This document shows positions 45,667 to 55,401 of a stretch of DNA of 64,000 nucleotides, piece after piece. Location: assembly GCF_000336875.1 (NCBI RefSeq), contig NZ_AOJK01000073.1, positions 53,410-117,409 of the forward strand, written 5' to 3'. Source of the stretch: Halorubrum californiense DSM 19288. GTDB taxonomy: Archaea; Halobacteriota; Halobacteria; Halobacteriales; Haloferacaceae. The notes below the pieces were generated by a model that had not been told where the DNA came from, did no database searches, and saw only the letters and a list, made by a program, of their open reading frames with translations. Numbering within the stretch: position 1 is the stretch's first letter; the number at the start of each line of letters is the position of its first letter. Both the position numbers and the translations under genes were made by a program.

Positions 45667-46026
45667 ATGAAGCGCGCCCTCCCGCTCGCGGTCGGCGTCG
45701 GTCTCTCGGTCGCTTTCGGCGTTCACCAACTGGCCCCGGTCCGCCCGACGACGTTCGGGACCGCCGCCGTCTACGCCGGCGCCGCGTACTTCTACCTCGG
45801 GTTCGACGTCTCGCTGCTCGGAGAGGCGCCGCGGTTCAGCGACCCCGTCGACCGGGTCGGCTACGGGCTGGGCCTCTTCGGTCTGAGCGTCACTCCGATT
45901 CTGTTCGCGCACTATGCCGGGGGCGACGACGGAGCCGTTCTCGGCTTCGTGATCGCGTTCTTCGGTGCGGTCGCGTTCCTCACGCTCAGCGAGCAGGCCA
46001 GACGCGTCAGTGACGGAACGGAGTAA
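45667..46026 (+). CDS. Four-helix membrane protein of unknown function
   Basis: 119 residues, about four hydrophobic stretches (LAVGVGLSVAFGVHQL, AAVYAGAAYFYLGFDV, VGYGLGLFGLSVTPILF, AVLGFVIAFFGAVAFL) and a charged C-terminus. No family recognised. Convergent with the end of the Mrp operon (42 bases). Confidence 0.65.
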   Translation: MKRALPLAVGVGLSVAFGVHQLAPVRPTTFGTAAVYAGAAYFYLGFDVSLLGEAPRFSDPVDRVGYGLGLFGLSVTPILFAHYAGGDDGAVLGFVIAFFGAVAFLTLSEQARRVSDGTE

Positions 46027-46068: not shown

Positions 46069-47847
46069 TCAGAGCAGCAGGGAGGCGAACAGCGCGACCC
46101 CGGCGGCGAGCGTCAGGAACAGCACGCTCCGACCGATACCGGCGCGGATCTCCGTATCGACGCCGGCCCGCGAGAGCGTCTCGCGTGGACTGGTCGCGGT
46201 CCGCATCGTCGCGCCCGCCAGCGCCATCGTCGCGCGGTCGACGGCCGCCCACAGTTCAGTGACGCCCCACACCGAACCGCGCCCGAGGTAGAAGGCGGCC
46301 GGGAAGAGGACGGCGTCGACGTCGGGCATCCGGTGGGCGAGCCAGCCGAGCGGGCGCTTCAGCGCGAAGAAGCCGGCGAAGCCGGCGACCAGCAGCGCCG
46401 CGCTCTCGACCAAGTGGCTCCGGCTGTACGGCTTGAAGTACACCTCGTCACTGAGGATGAGGTCAGTGAACGGCATCAGCTCGATCAGCTGGGTGTAGAA
46501 GACGCCGAAAAAGACGCACGCGCCGGCGGCCAACAGCATTCCGACCGTCTGGAACGGGGTAGCGTCGTCCGGCGACAGCGTCGCCGAACCGTGGAAGAAC
46601 ATGTAGTAGCCCAGCTTGATGAACGACATGAACGTCCCAACGCCGCCGAGGACGAGCAGCCACCAGAGCAGCCCGCTGTCCAGCAGAAGGACGTACTCGT
46701 GGACCTCGTGGGCGGAGTCGAGTACCATCCCCTTCGAGATGAAGCCGTTGAAGCCGGGCACCGCCGTAATCGAGGCCGCGCCGACGAGGTAGACGAGGAA
46801 GGTGACCGGCATCACGCGCCAGAGCCCGCCCATCTCGCGGATGTCCTCGACGCCGGTCCGGTAGACGACGACGCCGACCGCCATGAACAGGAGGCTCTTG
46901 TAGAGGACGTTGTTGAACAGGTGCGCGAAGCCGCCGACGACGGCGAACTCGCCGACCGCCGTGGCGAGGCCGAACCCGGCGAGCATGTAGCCGAGCTGGG
47001 CCTGGATGTGGTACGACAGCAGCCGGCGCGGGTCGTACTGGAGCAGCGCGAAGAACGCACCGTAGACGGCCATGAACCCGCCGAGGTAGGCGAGCCACAT
47101 GCCGCCCTCGGGGAACGCACGGTACATGACGTAGGCGGCGGTCTTCGTGGTGAACACCGAGAGGAACACCGACGCCGCGACGTGCGGGCGCGGGTAGGTG
47201 TCCGGCAGCCAGCTGTGCAGGAAGATGAACCCGCAGTTGATCCCGATGCCGACCGCCGCGAGGACCGCCGCGGCCGGGTGGATCCCGACCGTTTCCGAGA
47301 ACAGGAACGTCCCCGCGTTCACGAAGTGGACGACGACGGCGGCGAGCAGGATGGTCCCGCCGGTCCCGTGGAACAGCGCGTAGCGGTACCCCGCGCGTAC
47401 CGCCGCCCCGCCGTGCTGCCAGACGAGCAGCGTCGAGGTGACGGCGGTCAGCTCCCAGAAGAAGATCAGGGTGAGCCAGTCGCCGGCGTAGATCGTCCCC
47501 AGGGTCGTGGCGACGTAGGTCAGCGCGAACGCGGTCACCCACGTCGGCGCCTCGCTGCCGTAGGCGTACAGCACCGCGGCCGTCGCGAGGAACCCGACGA
47601 CGACCCCCATCAGCAGCGAGAACTGGTCGACGTTGAAGAACACGACGTCGAAGCCGAGGAACGTCGTCGCGAGGTGTGCGCCCGTGCCGCCGTCGCCGAG
47701 CAGCACCGCCTGCGCGAAGGTGAACGCCGTCGCGAGCGCGGCGACCGCGTGTCCCGCCCGCCGCGGCAGCGCCAGCACCGCGAGCGCCGCGAACGCGAGC
47801 AGGATGTACGGCGGAATCGACGCGAGGAGGCTCGTGGGCACCGTCAC
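46069..47847 (-). CDS. Mrp/NuoL-family antiporter-like subunit (last gene of operon)
   Basis: 592 residues with about 14 membrane helices. The GTG start at 47847 overlaps the upstream stop by GTGA. FFWELTAVTSTLLVW carries E132 and TTKTAAYVMYR K235, both typical of MrpA/MrpD/NuoL. The helix-7 lysine is absent: GIGINCGFIFLHSWLP has N204 where K stands in GxxxKxxxxPxHxWLP. FNGFISKGMVLDSA keeps the helix-12 region lysine. FFWELT resembles the MrpA N-terminal part more than MrpD, so it may stand in for the missing N-terminal half of MrpA. Subunit identity is less sure than family. Confidence 0.85.
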   Translation of the reverse strand: MTVPTSLLASIPPYILLAFAALAVLALPRRAGHAVAALATAFTFAQAVLLGDGGTGAHLATTFLGFDVVFFNVDQFSLLMGVVVGFLATAAVLYAYGSEAPTWVTAFALTYVATTLGTIYAGDWLTLIFFWELTAVTSTLLVWQHGGAAVRAGYRYALFHGTGGTILLAAVVVHFVNAGTFLFSETVGIHPAAAVLAAVGIGINCGFIFLHSWLPDTYPRPHVAASVFLSVFTTKTAAYVMYRAFPEGGMWLAYLGGFMAVYGAFFALLQYDPRRLLSYHIQAQLGYMLAGFGLATAVGEFAVVGGFAHLFNNVLYKSLLFMAVGVVVYRTGVEDIREMGGLWRVMPVTFLVYLVGAASITAVPGFNGFISKGMVLDSAHEVHEYVLLLDSGLLWWLLVLGGVGTFMSFIKLGYYMFFHGSATLSPDDATPFQTVGMLLAAGACVFFGVFYTQLIELMPFTDLILSDEVYFKPYSRSHLVESAALLVAGFAGFFALKRPLGWLAHRMPDVDAVLFPAAFYLGRGSVWGVTELWAAVDRATMALAGATMRTATSPRETLSRAGVDTEIRAGIGRSVLFLTLAAGVALFASLLL

Positions 47848-50057
47848 GGGCGCACCACCCCCTCGGGAAGCCGCGTGTCGACGATGAGCTCGATCAGCTC
47901 GAGGAAGCCCATCTCGTAGGGGATCACGCCGAGTAGCACCGCGAGCGTCATCGCGGTGAGGATCGGCCCGAGCGTGAACCACGTCGACTCGCGCCCGCGG
48001 AGGGCGTCGAGCCCGGCGATGTGTTCCCAGCCGCCAGCCGGCGGCCCGCCGTGGTGGCCGTCGTCGTGCGTGTCAGCGTCGTGACCGCCGTGCGGGTCGT
48101 CGTCGTGGTCGCCGTGCGGGTCGTCTGGGCCCCGATCCTCGTCGGAGGCGCGGTCCGCTTCGGCGTCGGCCGCACTCAGGTCAGACACACTCTCGTCGGA
48201 CGCGTCACCGCGTCCGGGTCCGAACGGCACGTCCGCGTCGGAGGGGCGCTGGTCGACCGCGTAATCGCCCGTGTCGACGCGCTCGGCCGGCTCCGAGAAG
48301 TCGCGCTCGCTCGTGTCGAAGTCCGGTCGGACGACGCCGTCCTCGTCGGTCGGCAGGTCGTCGAGGTCGGCGTCCGGCACCGCGGACTCGTCGACGCCGT
48401 CCGCGTCGGGCGTCGAGTCGTCGCCGCCGCCCGCGTCCGCGACGATGTCGTCCACGCCGTCGGCGTTCTCGGCTTCACCGTTCTCGTCTTCGGCGTTGTC
48501 TTCGTTCGCGTCGTCACCTGCGCGGCCCCCGTCGGTCGCCGCGTCGTCACCTGCGCGGCCCCCGTCGGTCGCCGCGTCGTCACCTGCGCGGCCCCCGTCG
48601 GTCGCCGCAGCGATCGACCGCGACTCGCCGCCGAGCGGGAAGTCGACGAGGGGCTTCGCGTCGTGGGCGTCCTCCGCCTCGAAGAAGGCGGTGTAGATGA
48701 CCGGCCAGAAGTACGCGATGTTGAGCACGCCGGAGAGGAGCAGCGCGCCGGCGAGGTAGTACGCGACCGGGGTGAAGTTCATCCCCATCCGCACGCCGCC
48801 GATCAGCATGTAATACTTGCTGACGAAGCCGGCGAGCAGCGGTATCCCCGCCATTCCGAGGGAGGCGATGGTGAAGGCCCCCATCGTCAGCGGCATCCGT
48901 TTGCCGATCCCCGCCATCTGCGAGATGTAGTCAGTGTGGGTAGACACGTGGATGTTGCCCGCGCAGAAGAACAGGGTGAGCTTCATGAACGCGTGCGCCG
49001 GGATGTGAAGCAGCGCGCCCACGAGCCCGTACCAGCCGAACAGCCCGAGCCCGAGGATGATGTAGCTCAGCTGGCTGATCGTCGAGTAGGCGAGCCGGCG
49101 CTTCAGGTGGTCCTTCCGGAGCGCGATGAGCGAGGCCGCCGTGAGCGTGATCGCGCCGATAGTCGAGAGGACGAGGCCGGCAGTGAACCCGAACGGAAGC
49201 GAGAGGTCGAAGACGAGTTCGGGACCGAACACGTCGAGGACGACCCGCGAGACGCCGAACGCGCCGGACTTGACGACCGCGACCGCGTGGAGCAACCCGG
49301 AGACCGGCGTCGGCGCCACCATCGCCTCGGGGAGCCACTGGTGGAGCGGCATGATTCCGGCCTTCACGCCGAACCCGATCGCGAGCAGGAAGAAAGCCAG
49401 CATCGCCAGCCCGGGGTCGGCGTTCGCGAGTTCCGCGATCCCGCCCGCGGTGAAGTCGACGGAGCCGGCGAGCAGGTAGACCAGCGCGGTGCCCGCCAAG
49501 ACGAGGACGCCGCCACCGAACATCGTGTACGCGAGGTACTTGCGGCCGGCCGAGCGCGCCTCGGCCGTCTCGTCGTGTGCGACGAGCGGGTACGTCGCGA
49601 TCGACAGCAGCTCGTAGAAGACGAATATCGTCACGAGGTTGCCCGCGAACGCGATCCCCATCGTCGCGGCCAGCGACACCGCGAACGCCGCGAAGTACCG
49701 GGTCTGGTTCGGTTCGTCAAGCCCGCGCATGTAGCCGATGCTGTAGAAGGAGGTGATTATCCACAGCCCGCTCGCGAGGAACGCGAACAGCATGCCGAGC
49801 GCGTCCGCGCGGAGCGCGAACTCGATCGGCGCGCCGATCCCGGGGAGGAACGCCCCGAGCGTCCACTCGAAGGTCGTGCCGTCGAGGACCGCCGGCAGCA
49901 TCGACGCGACGATGCCGAACTTCACGAGCGACGCGACGAGCGTCCACCCCTCGCGGACGTTCGGCGAGCGGTACGACGCGACGATGAGGAACGCCGCGAC
50001 GAACGAGACGAGAACCGCCAGTAGGGGTCGTGGGTCTGAGAGTACAACGTCTGTCAT
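47844..50057 (-). CDS. mnhD: MnhD/MrpD-like antiporter subunit with long acidic/His-rich insert
   Basis: 737 residues, against about 500 for the family. Residues 1-480 are the membrane core with proton-path residues E149 (FVFYELLS), K232 (GFGVKAGIMPLHQWLPEAM), KS at 263-264 (VAVVKSGAF) and K414 (FVSKYYM). Residues about 484-675 are an inserted hydrophilic stretch: three AATDGGRAGDD repeats, then acidic, ending in a His-rich run (PHGDHDDDPHGGHD). The last helix (about 690-735) follows. ATGA overlap with the upstream gene at 50054-50057, GTGA overlap with the next. The insert probably lies in a loop on one membrane face. Confidence 0.92.
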   Translation of the reverse strand: MTDVVLSDPRPLLAVLVSFVAAFLIVASYRSPNVREGWTLVASLVKFGIVASMLPAVLDGTTFEWTLGAFLPGIGAPIEFALRADALGMLFAFLASGLWIITSFYSIGYMRGLDEPNQTRYFAAFAVSLAATMGIAFAGNLVTIFVFYELLSIATYPLVAHDETAEARSAGRKYLAYTMFGGGVLVLAGTALVYLLAGSVDFTAGGIAELANADPGLAMLAFFLLAIGFGVKAGIMPLHQWLPEAMVAPTPVSGLLHAVAVVKSGAFGVSRVVLDVFGPELVFDLSLPFGFTAGLVLSTIGAITLTAASLIALRKDHLKRRLAYSTISQLSYIILGLGLFGWYGLVGALLHIPAHAFMKLTLFFCAGNIHVSTHTDYISQMAGIGKRMPLTMGAFTIASLGMAGIPLLAGFVSKYYMLIGGVRMGMNFTPVAYYLAGALLLSGVLNIAYFWPVIYTAFFEAEDAHDAKPLVDFPLGGESRSIAAATDGGRAGDDAATDGGRAGDDAATDGGRAGDDANEDNAEDENGEAENADGVDDIVADAGGGDDSTPDADGVDESAVPDADLDDLPTDEDGVVRPDFDTSERDFSEPAERVDTGDYAVDQRPSDADVPFGPGRGDASDESVSDLSAADAEADRASDEDRGPDDPHGDHDDDPHGGHDADTHDDGHHGGPPAGGWEHIAGLDALRGRESTWFTLGPILTAMTLAVLLGVIPYEMGFLELIELIVDTRLPEGVVRP
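48508..48606. repeat. Three perfect 33-bp tandem repeats inside mnhD
   Basis: The unit GCGTCGTCACCTGCGCGGCC plus 13 bases occurs at 48508-48540, 48541-48573 and 48574-48606 without a mismatch. It encodes an 11-residue AATDGGRAGDD motif on the minus strand. Length is a multiple of three, so copy number can change without breaking the frame. Confidence 0.95.
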
Positions 50058-51685
50058 GCGAACACCTCCGCGAGGAACGGGCCGAACCACTCCGCGAGCG
50101 CGAAGCCGCCGAAGCCGAGCGCGACCGTCGCCAGCACCGCCAGTCCGAGCGCGAGCAACGGCGCCGTCGGGACTCGGTCGGGAACGAGCCACGACCGCGG
50201 AGCGCCCTCGACGGGCGCCGGAAGGCCGTCAGCCGTCTTCGCCGGTGATTCGTTGCGACCACCGACCGCGGCGGCGTCCCCGCCGTCGGTGGCCGCGTCG
50301 TCGTCACCGCGGTCCCCGAATATTTCGCCGTGGTCGCCGGGGAGCCCGGCGCCGGCGAAGTAGAACCGCTCGATCAGGCGCGCGACGTACGACAGCGTGA
50401 ACAGCGTGCTGACGAATATCGCCGCCGCGACCGCGATCCCGACCGCGCCGCCGCCGGCGAGGCCGGCGTCGACCGCCCCGACGCCGATGTACCACTTGCC
50501 GAGGAAGCCGATCGAGGGCGGGATCCCGACGAGTCCGAGGCCGAGGACGGCGACCGCACCGGACGTGTACGGCGCCGCGCGGGCGGCGCTCGCGAGGTCG
50601 CTCATCTGCCGGCTGCCGTAGCCGAGCGCCAGCAGCCCGATCCCGAGGAAGAGGCCGAACTTCATGATCCCGTGACCGATCAGGTGGACGATCCCGCCGA
50701 GCAGCGCCGTCTCGTTCGCGAGCGCGACGGCCGCGCCGATCATCCCGAACTGCGCGACCGAGGAGTACGCGAACATCCGCTTGAGGTTCGACTGCATCGC
50801 GGCGAGCGCAGAGCCCGCGACGATCGAGACTGTCGAGACGACGAGCAGCGCGGTCGCGATCCCCTCGTTCGCCGCGAGGAAATCGACGGTGAACACGGTG
50901 TAGGTCACGCGGATCAGCGCGTAGGCGCTCGTCGTCGAGACCAGCGCCGCGACGACCGTCGTGACCGAGTCCGGCGCGCGCTGGTAGGCGTCGGGCTGCC
51001 ACGAGTGGACCGGGAAGATGGCGATCTTCAGCGCCAGCCCGGTCACGATAAACGCGTAGCTCGCGCGGACGAGCGGGTCGCCGTAGCCGGCCTGCGCGAC
51101 GATCTGCGCCTGGACGTCGAGCATGTTCAGCGTCCCCGTCGCGAGGAAGACGTAGCCGACGCCGAGCAGGTACAGCGAGGCGCCGACAGTGCCGACGACG
51201 AGGTACTTCAGCGAGGCGTACGCGCTCGCGCCCGACCGGTCCGAGGCGATGAGCGCGTACGTCGTCAGCCCGGTGATCTCGAGGAACACGAACAGGTTGA
51301 ACAGGTCCCCGGTGAGCACCATCCCGACGAGGCCGCCGACCAGCAGGAGGTACGCGCTGTAGAACGGGTTCCCGCGGGGGCCGGCCACGCGAGCGAACGC
51401 GAGCGTCGCGACCGAGACCGCGGCCACGAGAAGCAGCACCGCTACCGACAGCCGGTCGGCGACGAGTTCGATTCCCACCGGCGGGAGGAAGCCGCCGAGG
51501 GCGTGGTCGAACGGGCCGTTGACGACGACCTCCGCGGCGATCGCTGCCGCGATTCCGGCCACCGCGGTCGTGCCGACAGCGGCGATCGGCCACCCGACGC
51601 GGTCGTACCGCAGACCGAGCGCCAGCGGCAGCGTCGCCGCCACGATGGGGACGACGACCGCGAGCGGTAGGAGGACGTCAATCAT
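50054..51685 (-). CDS. mnhD: MnhD/MrpD-like antiporter subunit
   Basis: 543 residues, about 14 helices. LFNLFVFLEITGLTTYALIASD carries the helix-5 Glu; GLALKIAIFPVHSWQPDAYQ the helix-7 Lys; QSNLKRMFAYSSVAQFGMIG the helix-10 region; SIGFLGKWYIGVGAV the helix-12 Lys. All main proton-path residues are retained, unlike the last paralogue. Acidic loop near 450-490 (GDRGDDDAATDGGDAA). The ATG at 51685 overlaps the mnhC stop by 8 bases; a GTG at 51694 is an alternative. The ATGA link follows to the next gene. Confidence 0.93.
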   Translation of the reverse strand: MIDVLLPLAVVVPIVAATLPLALGLRYDRVGWPIAAVGTTAVAGIAAAIAAEVVVNGPFDHALGGFLPPVGIELVADRLSVAVLLLVAAVSVATLAFARVAGPRGNPFYSAYLLLVGGLVGMVLTGDLFNLFVFLEITGLTTYALIASDRSGASAYASLKYLVVGTVGASLYLLGVGYVFLATGTLNMLDVQAQIVAQAGYGDPLVRASYAFIVTGLALKIAIFPVHSWQPDAYQRAPDSVTTVVAALVSTTSAYALIRVTYTVFTVDFLAANEGIATALLVVSTVSIVAGSALAAMQSNLKRMFAYSSVAQFGMIGAAVALANETALLGGIVHLIGHGIMKFGLFLGIGLLALGYGSRQMSDLASAARAAPYTSGAVAVLGLGLVGIPPSIGFLGKWYIGVGAVDAGLAGGGAVGIAVAAAIFVSTLFTLSYVARLIERFYFAGAGLPGDHGEIFGDRGDDDAATDGGDAAAVGGRNESPAKTADGLPAPVEGAPRSWLVPDRVPTAPLLALGLAVLATVALGFGGFALAEWFGPFLAEVFA

Positions 51686-52178
51686 CCGTCTCACCTCCCG
51701 CGTCGGGCGCGCCGGCAGATCCGTCGGCGGCGGGCTCCCCGTCGGTGCCCGCCGCGTTCGGCGAGCGCCGGGCGGGGATGGAGCCCTCGTCGCGGAGCAG
51801 TTCGCGGAGCGTGTCGGTCCGTAGCGTGCCGTACTCGTCGTATATTCGGATACACAGCGCGAGCCCGACCGCGGTGAGGCTCACGCCGACGACGATGGCG
51901 GTGAGCACGAGGACGTGCGGCAGCGGGCTCACGTAGAGCCCGCCCTCCGGACCCCCGATCGGGACGATGGGGATCGATCCGCCCTCGACGTACGCCGAGG
52001 CGATGAACAGCAGGAATATCGCCGTCTGGAACAGGTTGAGTCCGATTATCTTCTTCACGAGGTTCGGGTTCGCGATCATCATGTAGAGGCCGATACACAA
52101 CAGCAGTGCGAACGCGACGTACGCGTGTCTCGTCGCGAGGATATCGACCGCGCCACCGGCCGATGCGAGCGCGAACAC
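51678..52178 (-). CDS. mnhC: Na+/H+ antiporter subunit C (MnhC/MrpC, NuoK-like)
   Basis: 166 residues from GTG 52178, its G shared with the upstream TAG (TAGTG overlap). Three helices (HAYVAFALLLCIGLYMM, LNLFQTAIFLLFIASAYVEGG, HVLVLTAIVVGVSLTAVGLAL) and IYDEYGTLR match MrpC/NuoK, with NLFQTA and the membrane-end Glu of SAYVEGG. Acidic C-terminal tail. It overlaps mnhD by eight bases. Confidence 0.92.
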   Translation of the reverse strand: MFALASAGGAVDILATRHAYVAFALLLCIGLYMMIANPNLVKKIIGLNLFQTAIFLLFIASAYVEGGSIPIVPIGGPEGGLYVSPLPHVLVLTAIVVGVSLTAVGLALCIRIYDEYGTLRTDTLRELLRDEGSIPARRSPNAAGTDGEPAADGSAGAPDAGGETDD

Positions 52179-52894
52179 TACGGCTCACCTCCGTCGGCCG
52201 CGGCCGGTCCCCCAGGGTTCGACTCCCCGTCGAGGGACTCGGCGTCGGTCGGCTCGCCGTCACCGTCGGTGCCGTCGCCGACCTCGTCGTCGAAGGCGTC
52301 CGCGTCGGCGAACCCGCCCGCGTCGCTGAACCCCTTCGCGAGGACGAAGAACAGCCCCATGAGTACGCCGGCAACGATCGTCCCGATCCCGAGGATCTCG
52401 ACGCCCTCCATCCCATACTTGACCGGGTCCGGGATCGGGAGCAGTTCGTACTGCAGGAACGCGCCGCCGAGCGCGACCGGGACCAGCCCGATGCCGGCGA
52501 AGACGAGCGCACCGCCGACGGCGAGCGCGACGACGACGGTGTTCGCGAGCCACTGCCGGGTCGCCTCGATCCCGAACGCGAACGCGATCATGAACACGAC
52601 CGCGGCCACGATCGCGCCGCCCTGGAACCCGCCGCCGGGCGAGCCGCCGCCGTGGAAGGTGACGAACAGGCCGTAGGTGAACGCGAACGGCGTGACGATC
52701 TTCACCGTCGACATGATGACCTGACTCTCCGTGTACGGGGTCCCCTGCCGACGCTCCGAGTCGAGTCGCCCGTCGCTTCGCGGCGGCCGGTCGCGACCAA
52801 ATCCGCCGTCGGTGGCGGGCTTCGAGACGGCGTCGGTGTCGGCGGCGTCAGTGTCTGCGGCGTCAGTGTCGACGCCGGAGTCGGAGCCGCTCAT
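52178..52894 (-). CDS. mnhB: Na+/H+ antiporter subunit B (MnhB/MrpB domain)
   Basis: 238 residues from ATG 52894. The first 60 residues are a disordered, Asp-rich extension (DTDAADTDAADTDAVS, from a microrepeat). Then a four-helix MnhB domain: IMSTVKIVTPFAFTYGLFVTFHGGGSPGGGFQGGAIVAAVVF, where SPGGGFQGG is the family signature. An acidic tail follows. ATGA overlap with the preceding gene at 52891-52894. A usual member would be about 150 residues, so the ends are halophile additions. Confidence 0.92.
   Translation of the reverse strand: MSGSDSGVDTDAADTDAADTDAVSKPATDGGFGRDRPPRSDGRLDSERRQGTPYTESQVIMSTVKIVTPFAFTYGLFVTFHGGGSPGGGFQGGAIVAAVVFMIAFAFGIEATRQWLANTVVVALAVGGALVFAGIGLVPVALGGAFLQYELLPIPDPVKYGMEGVEILGIGTIVAGVLMGLFFVLAKGFSDAGGFADADAFDDEVGDGTDGDGEPTDAESLDGESNPGGPAAADGGEP
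52827..52871. repeat. 15-bp microrepeats in mnhB N-terminus
   Basis: GCGGCGTCAGTGTC units at 52842-52856 and 52857-52871, preceded by a variant at 52827-52841, encode the DTDAA repeats. In frame, so length can change without breaking the gene. Confidence 0.85.
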
Positions 52895-53481
52895 GCGAAC
52901 ACCTCCCTGTGGAGGACGATGAGGGCGGCGATCCCGGCCGCGAACACGACGACCGCCTCGCCGAACGTGTCGAACCCGCGGAACGCCGCCAGCACGGCCA
53001 TCACCGTGTTCTCGACGTGCGTCTCCGCGTACGTCTCGGCGATGTACCACTGAGTCACGTCCGGGTTCGACCAGATCGGCGCGTCCGCTGAACCCACCGC
53101 GGGAATGTCGCCCATCGTGAGCATCAGCCCGGCGAACAACAGGCCGGCCGCGCCCGCCGCCGGCAGGTTCACCGACTCGAATGCGGCCTCGTGGTCGAGC
53201 CGGGTCGTCTTCGCGAGCGTGAGGAGCAGCAGCACGGTCGTCACGCCGGCGGAGATGGCGGCCTCCGTCATCGCCACGTCCGGCGCGCGGTAGAACGTGT
53301 ACAGCGCGGCCATCCCGAGGCTGTAGGCGCCGAAGATGATCACGGCCGCGAGCACGTCGCGCGCCAGCGCGGTGAACAGCGCGGTCAACACGACGAAGAC
53401 GAACAGGCTCGCCTCGATGGCGGTGACCTGCGCGACCACCGGCGCGCCGAGGGGGCCGGCCGACGCGAGCGCGCCGGTCAT
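52891..53481 (-). CDS. MrpA C-terminal-type subunit (DUF4040/MbhD-like)
   Basis: 196 residues. SLFVFVVLTALFTALARDVLAAVIIFGAYSLGMAALYTFYRAPDVAMTEAAISAGV matches the DUF4040/MbhD domain found in the C-terminal part of MrpA or as a separate subunit. Further hydrophobic stretches (GAAGLLFAGLMLTMG, FGEAVVVFAAGIAALIVLH) resemble the adjoining MbhE-like part. ATGA overlaps on both sides (52891-52894 and 53478-53481). No N-terminal NuoL-like half exists in this gene, so the operon has a split MrpA. Confidence 0.88.
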   Translation of the reverse strand: MTGALASAGPLGAPVVAQVTAIEASLFVFVVLTALFTALARDVLAAVIIFGAYSLGMAALYTFYRAPDVAMTEAAISAGVTTVLLLLTLAKTTRLDHEAAFESVNLPAAGAAGLLFAGLMLTMGDIPAVGSADAPIWSNPDVTQWYIAETYAETHVENTVMAVLAAFRGFDTFGEAVVVFAAGIAALIVLHREVFA

Positions 53482-53813
53482 CGGCGGTCGTCCCCCTCGA
53501 TCCACGGCACGATTCCCTCCTCGAAGGCGGCCCGGGCGATGGCGTGGGCCGCGGTCGGGTTCGTCACGAAGATGAAGAACAGCAAGAGGACCGACTTGAA
53601 TCCGGCCCCCGCCAGTCCGACGGTGATGGCGACGGCCGCGAGGCCGAACCCCGCGCCGAGCGTGTCGGCCTGCGAGGCGGTGTGTGCCCGCGAGTACACG
53701 TCCGGCAGGCGGAGCACGCCTACCATCGAGACGAACGAGAAGAACAGCCCGAGCAGCGTGAGCGCGACCACGAGCCACACGCGGGCCGTCTCCGTCGCGG
53801 CGGCGGCGGTCAC
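53478..53813 (-). CDS. mnhG: Na+/H+ antiporter subunit G (MnhG/MrpG)
   Basis: 111 residues from GTG 53813. Three helices; VVALTLLGLFFSFVSMVGVLRLPDVYSRAHTASQADTLGAG contains the MrpG signature RLPDxxxRxHA. Ends with acidic EGIVPWIEGDDRR. GTGA overlap with mnhF (53810-53813) and ATGA with the following gene. Confidence 0.93.
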   Translation of the reverse strand: MTAAAATETARVWLVVALTLLGLFFSFVSMVGVLRLPDVYSRAHTASQADTLGAGFGLAAVAITVGLAGAGFKSVLLLFFIFVTNPTAAHAIARAAFEEGIVPWIEGDDRR

Positions 53814-54115
53814 AGCACACCACCCCGCTCGACGGTGAACTTCGAGATGGCGATGGCCATCAGGAAGTTGAGCAGCGCGTACACTAAGGCGATGTCGAGG
53901 AACGTCGGCTCGCCGAGCGCCGCGCCGAGGATGGCGAGGATGACGACGGTGTTCGTCCCGAGGACGTTCACCGCCAACACCCGGTCTTGCATCGTCGGCC
54001 CGACGACCGCGCGGTAGAGCATGCCGACCGCGAGGACGGCGAAGCCGGCGGCCGCGACGAGCAGGAAGTCGCCGAGGGTGTAGCCGGCCGCGAGCGAGGC
54101 GTCCACGAGGCTCAT
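53810..54115 (-). CDS. mnhF: Na+/H+ antiporter subunit F (MnhF/MrpF)
   Basis: 101 residues, three helices. GFAVLAVGMLYRAVVGPTMQDRVLAVNVLGTNTVVILAILGAALGEPTFLDIALVYALLNFL includes the family's PTxxDRVLAxN motif and the conserved Asp of FLDIALVYALL. ATGA overlap with mnhE at 54112-54115. Confidence 0.93.
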   Translation of the reverse strand: MSLVDASLAAGYTLGDFLLVAAAGFAVLAVGMLYRAVVGPTMQDRVLAVNVLGTNTVVILAILGAALGEPTFLDIALVYALLNFLMAIAISKFTVERGGVL

Positions 54116-55401
54116 CGGTCGGTCACCTCGTCGGAGGCATCGTCGCTACTGATGCTACCGTCGCTCGCGTCGGCCGCGTCGATTCCGTCAGCCGCGTCGC
54201 TCGCGTCGACAACTCCGCCGGCGGCGGCGGCGATGGGCAGTTCCTCGGTGGCGTCGGGGCCTTGGAGGATCGCGACATCGTCGCGCTCGCGGGGGGTCGG
54301 GAGCCGCGCCGACCGGCGACCGTAGTAGATGAAGCGCGTCCACCGTTCGAGGGAACCGTCGAACAGCCCCTCGCGGGCCCACGGGACGAGCGAGTGGACG
54401 TAGAGGTCGCTGTCGCGGGCGCGGACGGTGAGCGTTCCGGGCGTCAGCGTGATCGAGTTCGCGAGCGTCATCAGCGGGAGCCCGCTCCCGACGATCACCC
54501 GCATCCGGTTCATCGTCGGCTCGATCGGCATCCGGGGATCGAGGATGACGCGCGCGACGACGAGGTTCGCCTTCAGGATCTCGAACAGCAGCACGGGGAC
54601 GTATATCAGCCCGCGGAGGATCCGCATCGGGGTCCGCGGAATCGCCGGGTTCGAATCGAGGCTCACCCGCGAGAGGGTGATCGAGACGATCGCGGCGGTC
54701 GCGACGCCCGTCACGGCGTCGAACCAGTAGGTCGGGTTGCCCAACAGGAGGTAAAAGGCCAGCGACAGCCCGAACAGCGCCACGAACCGGCCGGTGGTGG
54801 CCTCGGTCCGAAACCGCTCGCGTCGCGTCGGCCGGTCGACCGGGGCGGTCTCGACCGACAGCGGCGTGTTCGAGAGGGCGAACTCCAGCGGCTGGAGCAG
54901 CGTCGTGTTGCCCACCGGGGTGTACTCGGGGTCGAGGACGACGCGGTCGGCGTCGTTCGCCTCGGCGTACTCCGCGAGGACGCGGACGTAGTCGTCGGCG
55001 CCGAACAGGTAGTCGTCGGCGCCGAGCACCGCCGTGACGACCTCGACGTCCGGGGCGGCGGGCGCCTCGGAGTCGTCGAGGTCGGCGGTCGTCCACGCCG
55101 CGGCGCGTTCGAGCACGCGCTCTGCGGCGGCGGCCCGCTCCTCGCTCTCCGGGTCCCCGTTCCGCCACGAGGCGATCTCGACGAGGTGGATCGCGGACGC
55201 GCCGTCGGCCGCTGCGGCCTCCGCGACGTGGGCGACCGTCGAGCGCAGCGTGGAACTCGGCTCGACCGGAACGATGACCGCGCCGGCCGACCCCGACGCC
55301 CCCGTCGCGTCCGAATCGGCGGCAGCGGCGGCGGCGTCCGGCGCGTCGCCGTCGGGGTCGTCCCCGCCGGACGCCGGGTCGGCGTCAGCCACCCACCACA
55401 C
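54112..55401 (-). CDS. mnhE: MnhE/MrpE antiporter subunit fused to N-terminal UspA-like domain
   Basis: 429 residues, against 160-170 for a plain MrpE. Residues about 40-190 are a universal-stress-protein-like Rossmann domain (VIVPVEPSSTLRSTVAHVAEAA and YAEANDADRVVLDPEYTPVGN). The MrpE domain follows at about 205-360: FVALFGLSLAFYLLLGNPTYW, FEILKANLVVARVILDPRMP (the MrpE signature), SITLTPGTLTV, VHSLVP. The C-terminal 60 residues are an acidic tail. Start GTG 55401; another GTG at 55392 is possible. It is the first gene of the operon. A CGGATA-containing motif sits in the upstream region (55402-55612). Confidence 0.9.
   Translation of the reverse strand: MWWVADADPASGGDDPDGDAPDAAAAAADSDATGASGSAGAVIVPVEPSSTLRSTVAHVAEAAAADGASAIHLVEIASWRNGDPESEERAAAAERVLERAAAWTTADLDDSEAPAAPDVEVVTAVLGADDYLFGADDYVRVLAEYAEANDADRVVLDPEYTPVGNTTLLQPLEFALSNTPLSVETAPVDRPTRRERFRTEATTGRFVALFGLSLAFYLLLGNPTYWFDAVTGVATAAIVSITLSRVSLDSNPAIPRTPMRILRGLIYVPVLLFEILKANLVVARVILDPRMPIEPTMNRMRVIVGSGLPLMTLANSITLTPGTLTVRARDSDLYVHSLVPWAREGLFDGSLERWTRFIYYGRRSARLPTPRERDDVAILQGPDATEELPIAAAAGGVVDASDAADGIDAADASDGSISSDDASDEVTDR

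Follow-up and report, generated by a model that had tools for sequence, protein, structure and literature searches.

The third antiporter-like subunit of a haloarchaeal Mrp-type gene cluster, here called D3, carries an asparagine (Asn204) at the position of the canonical helix-7 lysine, and in the proteins compared here this substitution typifies the NF009310 family, which spans archaea and bacteria and occurs in both Mrp-type and complex I-like clusters. Asn204 is accompanied by a histidine on helix 6 (His160) that appears, from the register of the two helices, to face position 204. On balance we favor the reading that the lysine was exchanged for asparagine together with His160 and that D3 still moves or gates protons through a Glu132-His160-Asn204 switch. 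The D3 family and green complex I are already known, and so is one relative without the lysine, HycC with Leu208; no description of the Asn204/His160 exchange was found in the literature searched, which covered green and other unusual forms of complex I incompletely.

The literature on the canonical helix-7 lysine is mixed. A paper on an Mrp model describes it as absolutely conserved, and as essential, among antiporter-like subunits; the coupling points of that model are the helix-5 glutamate and the helix-7 lysine, with the helix-12 lysine of the neighboring subunit (PMC7419157). The Glu-Lys pair of Nqo13 is described as essential for catalysis in a paper that treats the site and manner of pumping in antiporter-like subunits as still disputed (PMC9802314). 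One paper reports that growth in a B. subtilis test was nearly unaffected by NuoL K229A or MrpA K196A, yet it also cites severely impaired complex I activity in the NuoL K229A variant (PMC4938563).

The window, meaning the whole 64,000-nucleotide stretch of Halorubrum californiense DSM 19288 that was analyzed, encodes D3 at 46069..47847 on the minus strand as a 592-residue protein, in a frame that starts with GTG at 47847, stops at 46069 and contains no internal stop on translation. An earlier sequence-only reading of this DNA had located the gene at these same coordinates, to which the minus coding strand must be added. D3 is the last of nine genes, all on the minus strand, in the order E F G DUF4040 B C D1 D2 D3. 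These encode MrpE (54112..55401; NF009295, 516.8 bits, cut-off 290), MrpF (53810..54115; NF009244, 145.3 bits, cut-off 90), MrpG (53478..53813; TIGR01300, 85.1 bits, cut-off 63.1), a DUF4040 protein with an inferred start that matches the C-terminal part of MrpA (52891..53481; NF009159, 228.5 bits, cut-off 141), an MrpB-like subunit whose start is likewise inferred (52178..52903; NF009160, 244.5 bits, cut-off 140), an MrpC-like subunit (51678..52178; NF005621, 178.7 bits, cut-off 126), D1 (50054..51694) and D2 (47844..50057), the end of which has the four bases GTGA in common with the start of D3. D1 is MrpD-like, with K223 on helix 7 and Thr254 at the helix-8 lysine position by profile column, and its best NCBIfam match, NF009305, scores 285.8 bits, under the cut-off of 700. 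The antiporter-like D2 (NF005561, 939.6 bits, cut-off 718), with an inferred start in an open frame that extends to 50192, carries K232 on helix 7, K263 on helix 8 and K414 on helix 12. The Mrp (CPA3) gene content, namely E, F, G, B, C, the MrpA C-terminal domain and antiporter-like subunits, is complete in this one cluster. Judged from the genes alone, the window cluster is an Mrp-type antiporter complex; a literature search found no paper on such a haloarchaeal Mrp-type cluster.

Several further features of the locus were observed. The C-terminal region of D2 contains a long acidic, repetitive insert (AATDGGRAGDD repeats) followed by the last hydrophobic stretch. The helix-8 lysine absent from D1 of the window (Thr254) is replaced by Thr in 27, Ala in 3 and Val in 1 of 31 haloarchaeal D1-like proteins and is present in 41 of 62 D1-like proteins outside the haloarchaea; in haloarchaeal clusters the lysine missing from D1 is thus a different one from that missing from D3. 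Convergent with D3, an open reading frame at 45667-46026 on the plus strand encodes 119 hydrophobic residues and has no Pfam match at E 0.001.

D3 scores 666.9 bits over residues 7-564 against NF009310 (PRK12668.1, 'Na(+)/H(+) antiporter subunit D'; cut-off 564), an entry in whose line neither a tested function nor a remark on the lysine was seen. Its PF00361 score of 121.4 bits (Pfam gathering cut-off 21.5), together with the broken helices 7 and 12 of its predicted structure, places it among the antiporter-like subunits; four more PF00361 matches lie elsewhere in the source genome, three on contig C9 and one on contig C78. In the AlphaFold model (pLDDT 93.5, pTM 0.89, input alignment of 78) helix 7 is interrupted at 206-212, helix 12 at 361-366 and helix 8 at 232, and because helix 7a (191-205) stops at residue 205, Asn204 adjoins the helix-7 break. 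A long helix at 511-552 (46192..46317, minus strand), ahead of the last membrane helix at 571-591, is predicted in the same model and is probably the counterpart of the lateral helix HL of NuoL and MrpA. Foldseek against solved structures returned 7qru_A first (TM-score 0.78 by query), and VIA-align gave Z 41.9-44.7 among the best 50 matches listed, the best being MrpA and NuoL/ND5 chains. The MrpA chain 7qru_A aligned over 511 residues (Z 43.9, rmsd 2.4, 22% identity) and the NuoL/ND5-type chain 9q8i_L over 493 residues (Z 44.2, rmsd 2.4, 19% identity). The N-terminal half of MrpA and NuoL have the HL-like helix and last membrane helix in common with modeled D3, but unlike D3 they possess the helix-7 lysine. 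MrpA is also described as having a histidine six residues before its helix-8 lysine (His248/Lys254, PMC9568556), where D3 has Leu229.

Asn204 (47236..47238, minus strand) was placed near the end of helix 7a by alignments, profile and model; it is the N of the motif that reads GIGINCGFIFLHSWLP. In phmmer alignments N204 pairs without gaps with the helix-7 lysine of the solved MrpA chains 6z16_A and 7qru_A, and a single profile assigns to its column NuoL K229, NuoM K234, NuoN K217, D1 K223, D2 K232 and HycC L208. Both the replacement of the lysine by Asn204 and its retention in the two sister subunits, as claimed by the sequence-only reading, are borne out by these alignments. A different lysine occupying the same spot, the alternative which that reading had named, is not seen in the sequence: D3 has no lysine before residue 235, and hence no other lysine of its N-terminal half could replace the missing one. 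Among the residues of a canonical MrpA, MrpD or NuoL/M/N subunit, D3 has the helix-5 glutamate (E132), the helix-8 Lys/His (K235) and the helix-12 Lys/Glu (K372), and it lacks the helix-7 lysine; on account of N204 we do not file it as a canonical MrpA or MrpD.

Matches at the NF009310 level were found in 165 of 194 genomes of the class and in 77 of 196 genomes drawn from the phylum; none of 14 control genomes exceeded the cut-off, 13 of them giving weaker matches. A first sample of loci (L001-L110), assembled from searches of the source genome itself, its family, class and phylum and from three plasmids, with part of the class and phylum matches entering, separated D3 by a wide score gap (361.9 vs 218.0 bits). 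In this sample all 105 non-identical D3 proteins have Asn204, compared with lysine in all 126 other antiporter-like subunits of the same loci, a contrast far greater than chance would produce. Asparagine is likewise present at this position in both Sinorhizobium homologues. The chance that Asn204 reflects a sequencing error, a misalignment or a decaying gene is negligible: error and misalignment are ruled out by the 105 concordant proteins, by a frame without early stop and by the recurrence of the motif in an orthologue with 96% identity, local decay of D3 is ruled out by the family-wide invariance, and a loss confined to haloarchaea by the Sinorhizobium, methanogen and other homologues that carry asparagine.

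In a genome scan the best 80 loci covered archaea and about ten bacterial phyla as assigned from record titles, many of them titles of metagenome bins. Matches at 1e-60 were present in 59 of 240 genomes around an alphaproteobacterial genome, 37 of 185 around a gammaproteobacterial genome and 88 of 198 around a 'deltaproteobacterial' genome. The ten members scanned outside the haloarchaea (nine bacterial, including one Sinorhizobium, plus one Dehalococcoides record) all passed the NF009310 cut-off at 689-792 bits, three of them being Lys-type and seven Asn-type.

A larger sample comprised 363 non-identical D3-family proteins of more than 330 bits and more than 300 residues, as well as 501 other antiporter-like subunits. 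Its scores descend without a clean gap (355, 335, 334, 325, 305, 291, 281 bits) and the 330-bit line was drawn by eye; 17 identical rows, a D3 piece of 250 residues (with Asn204 and His160) and 35 other pieces of at most 250 residues were dropped, and the remaining rows are non-identical but not independent, with uneven sampling. Position 204 is Asn in 292, Lys in 68, Arg in 2 and Ser in 1 of the D3-family proteins and Lys in 496, Asn in 3, Ala in 1 and a gap in 1 of the other subunits, where three of the five non-Lys calls (L342, L365, L180) look like one-column shifts beside a lysine. The other two losses outside the D3 family, at L353:3206-4714 (Asn) and L345:3157-4722 (Ala), look real and may be independent. 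An initial expectation, that proteobacterial relatives keep the lysine, holds for one clade only (68 of the 363 family members). The substitution that had been noticed in a single subunit of one cluster is family-wide, and a second one is associated with it.

That second substitution is His160 (helix 6; 47368..47370, minus strand), present in 297 of 363 D3-family proteins and in 1 of 501 other subunits. Asn204 is combined with His160 in 291 of 292 proteins and with Leu160 in the remaining one, Lys204 with Gln160 in 63 and with His160 in 5 of 68, and the rare types are Arg204/Asn160 (2) and Ser204/His160 (1); since five Lys-type members have His160, the histidine and the lysine are not mutually exclusive. 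Around this pair the other polar residues of the family are kept, all encoded on the minus strand: Glu132 on helix 5, the remaining member of the Glu/Lys pair (47452..47454; 360/363), the central Lys235 on helix 8 (47143..47145; 361/363), Lys317 on helix 11, mostly kept (46897..46899; 343/363), and the terminal Lys372 on helix 12 (46732..46734; 359/363).

These retained residues bear on whether D3 could be a proton-inactive structural strap that grips D1 and D2 with its HL-like helix and retains a polar core for the sake of folding, a role which we regard as unlikely. Such a role would be in keeping with the essentiality of the helix-7 lysine for catalysis in Nqo13 and with the judgment of one study that the transverse helix of complex I is purely structural (both PMC9802314), as well as with reports on HycC, which lacks the lysine (Leu208) and in which E135A and K239A caused no significant drop in H2 production (PMC9474812, PMC5061711), although HycC differs at helix 12, where it has Glu391 instead of lysine. 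Glu132, Lys235 and Lys372 are, however, all present in 289 of 292 Asn-type proteins, as in 68 of 68 Lys-type proteins, which makes decay unlikely and weakens the suggestion of the sequence-only reading that the subunit does not pump and serves as a structural piece. The exceptions, namely the two Arg204 proteins, the Ser204 protein and the His160-less L253, each lack one or more of these three residues and so have the look of decay: L253, the sole Asn204 protein without His160, has also lost Glu132, Arg155, Lys317 and Lys372, L249 (Ser204) has Gln132 and Ser317, and L247 and L248 (Arg204) have Thr235 and a residue other than lysine at position 372. There are thus decayed copies in the family, and they are distinguishable from its Asn-type majority; these four proteins may be subunits that truly do not pump.

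HycC of E. coli formate hydrogenlyase resembles D3 in that its helix-7 lysine is replaced (Leu208) while the helix-5 glutamate and the helix-8 lysine are described as present (PMC9474812, PMC5061711), and its His291 falls in the column of D3 His280 (helix 10; 47008..47010, minus strand). It differs from D3 in having Gly158 instead of His160 and Glu391 instead of Lys372, and in belonging to a hydrogenase; the genes flanking D3 are mrp genes. By analogy with HycC, in which Leu208 is paired with a His291 reported to belong to an alternative path that protons take to the cytoplasmic side (PMC9474812), D3 might use its distal half only, protons entering from the cytoplasm at Lys235/His280 and leaving at Lys372 with the Glu5/Lys7 link to D2 cut. 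His280 is indeed enriched in the family (227/363, compared with 2/501 other subunits, position 280 being Ser in 125/363 and 488/501, respectively). Yet 60 Asn-type members combine Ser280 with His160, so that His280 is dispensable with Asn204 and was rejected as a general stand-in for the lysine, whereas His160 is nearly always present, and the near invariance of Glu132 is unexpected of an idle end; we consider a distal-half mechanism improbable. The other suggestion of the sequence-only reading, that the subunit uses another path, is consistent with a His160 that is associated with Asn204 and appears to face it, and with His280 in the HycC His291 column.

We compared the 70 proteins of the Lys clade (68 Lys, 2 Arg) with the 52 proteins most closely related to them (51 Asn, 1 Ser). 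Columns 204 (N to K, 1.00) and 163 (G to S, 1.00) show the strongest difference, followed by 200 (G to A, 0.96), 160 (H to Q, 0.93), 207 (0.93) and 236 (0.90), and the sums 160+204 = 364 and 163+200 = 363 are as expected of antiparallel helices 6 and 7. In a mean-field coupling analysis of 61,474 pairs, performed for all 821 proteins, for 362 D3 proteins and for the non-D3 set, the pair 160-204 ranked 20th in the full set and 27th in D3. It ranked 30,641st in the non-D3 set, in which position 204 is almost fixed. The four best helix-6/helix-7 pairs of the non-D3 set, 164-200 (rank 59), 166-199 (105), 174-193 (137) and 160-203 (188), have sums of 363-367 and thus show much the same register independently of the K/N switch, although 163-200 ranks 26,831st there and off-register pairs (155-201, 170-200) are also present. 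Positions 132 and 160 are not coupled (rank 37,277 in the full set and 14,195 in D3), so that the coupling analysis gives no support for a His160-Glu132 contact. Because the tree contains essentially one Asn-to-Lys event, the 160/204 association lacks the backing of many independent events, a weakness that extends to the coupling ranks obtained with D3 included.

A FastTree phylogeny of 362 D3 proteins and 84 others (80 of 386 other subunits plus four rows from L108-L110, pieces of at most 380 residues being left out) recovered the D3 proteins as one clade with support 1.0, within which the 70 Lys/Arg proteins form one nested clade (support 0.998). Fitch parsimony assigns Asn204/His160/His280 to the D3 root, with 3 changes at position 204, 7 at 160 and 15 at 280 inside the clade. 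The Lys rows were nested again in a 73-row tree built without columns 160, 163, 200, 204 and 280, with SH-aLRT values of 99-100 on enclosing branches (45, 26 and 15 rows), weaker branches between these and 72 on the Lys branch. A tree in which all Asn-type proteins form one clade was not rejected by the AU test with 73 rows (p 0.146), nor with 84 rows (p 0.0523, log-likelihood 38 lower). Sequence identity between a Lys-type protein and its closest Asn-type relative is 49-65% (median 60%); these closest Asn-type relatives share 32-36% identity with D3 of the window. These trees favor one ancient loss of the lysine at the base of D3 and one regain in Proteobacteria, a history that is favored rather than proven because the AU tests leave the simpler tree standing.

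Two gene orders recur, while some loci with listed context show neither. In the first, E F G (DUF4040/B) C is followed by two Lys subunits and D3, a slot filled by Asn-type or Lys-type D3 alike in haloarchaea, methanogens and several bacterial phyla. In the second, found in rhizobia, Rhodobacterales, Moritella and others, the order is nuoK, a Lys subunit, D3 and two Lys subunits, with other nuo genes before or after. Five loci (L111, L112, L115, L129, L134) do contain D3, which the context listing omits since duplicate rows were dropped. D3 takes the place of NuoL in the nuo clusters of L088, L089, L158, L159, L161, L165, L185 and L186, and does not do so in the window. One-frame fusions of a Lys-type subunit with an Asn-type D3, of about 1,090-1,175 residues, occur at L056, L102 (two), L103, L139 and L170, the last being a planctomycete record whose fused frame runs to the end of the available DNA; such natural D2-D3 fusions would support contact between D2 and D3 in the complex. 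Candidate fusions at L054, L057, L078 and L105 were rejected as long open frames over separate genes, on the basis of domains per frame. Two or three D3 genes are present at each of L094, L095, L104, L142, L145, L147, L153 and L154, which belong to some Halobacteriota (including Methanocalculus and Methanophagales) and a deltaproteobacterium.

The second gene order matches green complex I, a form described as having a pair of MrpD-like subunits in place of NuoL, with HL on MrpD2 (PMC9040806); subunits of the MrpD2 type belong to rhizobial green complex I and to Complex_I_3 of Ca. Manganitrophaceae. The Sinorhizobium homologue of D3 (NF009310, 792.1 bits) has asparagine at helix 7 and lies in the order nuoK - Lys subunit - D3 - NuoM - NuoN - nuoA-F, which suggests that it is the published MrpD2. 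The window cluster differs from green complex I in being Mrp-type, with flanking mrp genes and no nuo genes found beside it, where neighbors other than the mrp genes were viewed as open reading frames. This setting and the haloarchaeal host would suit a cation site in which Glu132, His160 and Asn204 handle Na+ or K+ rather than protons at the D2/D3 boundary; a Na+ route has been proposed at the boundary of MrpA helix 5 and MrpD helix 12 (PMC5703873), and an asparagine with an unpaired glutamate would make plausible cation ligands. The same type of D3 nevertheless occurs in complex I-like nuo clusters, where protons are the expected ion, and we give a cation site very little probability.

In the proton-switch reading that we favor, D3 would act as the third antiporter-like subunit of an Mrp-type complex encoded by nine genes, and would bear an HL-like helix. 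The exchange of the helix-7 lysine for asparagine would most probably date from the ancestor shared by all D3 proteins and would have been accompanied by the appearance of His160. This histidine would pack against the vacated position 204; the helix-5 glutamate is retained, as are the lysines on helices 8, 11 and 12. D3 is probably the neighbor of D2 at the distal end of the complex, and if it lies beyond D2, Glu132 and Asn204 would be opposite the helix-12 lysine of D2. With asparagine at 204, Glu132 would need another proton-bearing partner, and His160 is the titratable residue tied to Asn204; the switch toward D2 would thereby be rebuilt as Glu132-His160-Asn204 instead of Glu-Lys. Proton conduction by D3 and the taking over of the lysine's job by His160 are both what we infer from these patterns. 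The specific version in which the proton-bearing residue moved from helix 7 to the helix-6 histidine, with pumping maintained and the move reversed in one proteobacterial clade, is put forward tentatively, as a reasonable possibility.

The D3 family is a large natural family of archaea and bacteria whose members mostly lack the 'essential' lysine and carry a partner substitution, and its Lys-type sister clade, at a median 60% identity to Asn-type proteins, amounts to a ready-made swap for asking what the lysine does. Mrp-type and complex I-like clusters both host the lysine-less D3, which touches the question of pumping described as disputed (PMC9802314). If the proposed switch is correct, a histidine, with its lower pKa, could stand in for the 'absolutely conserved' helix-7 lysine, and an antiporter complex would combine two classical modules with a third that is tuned differently.
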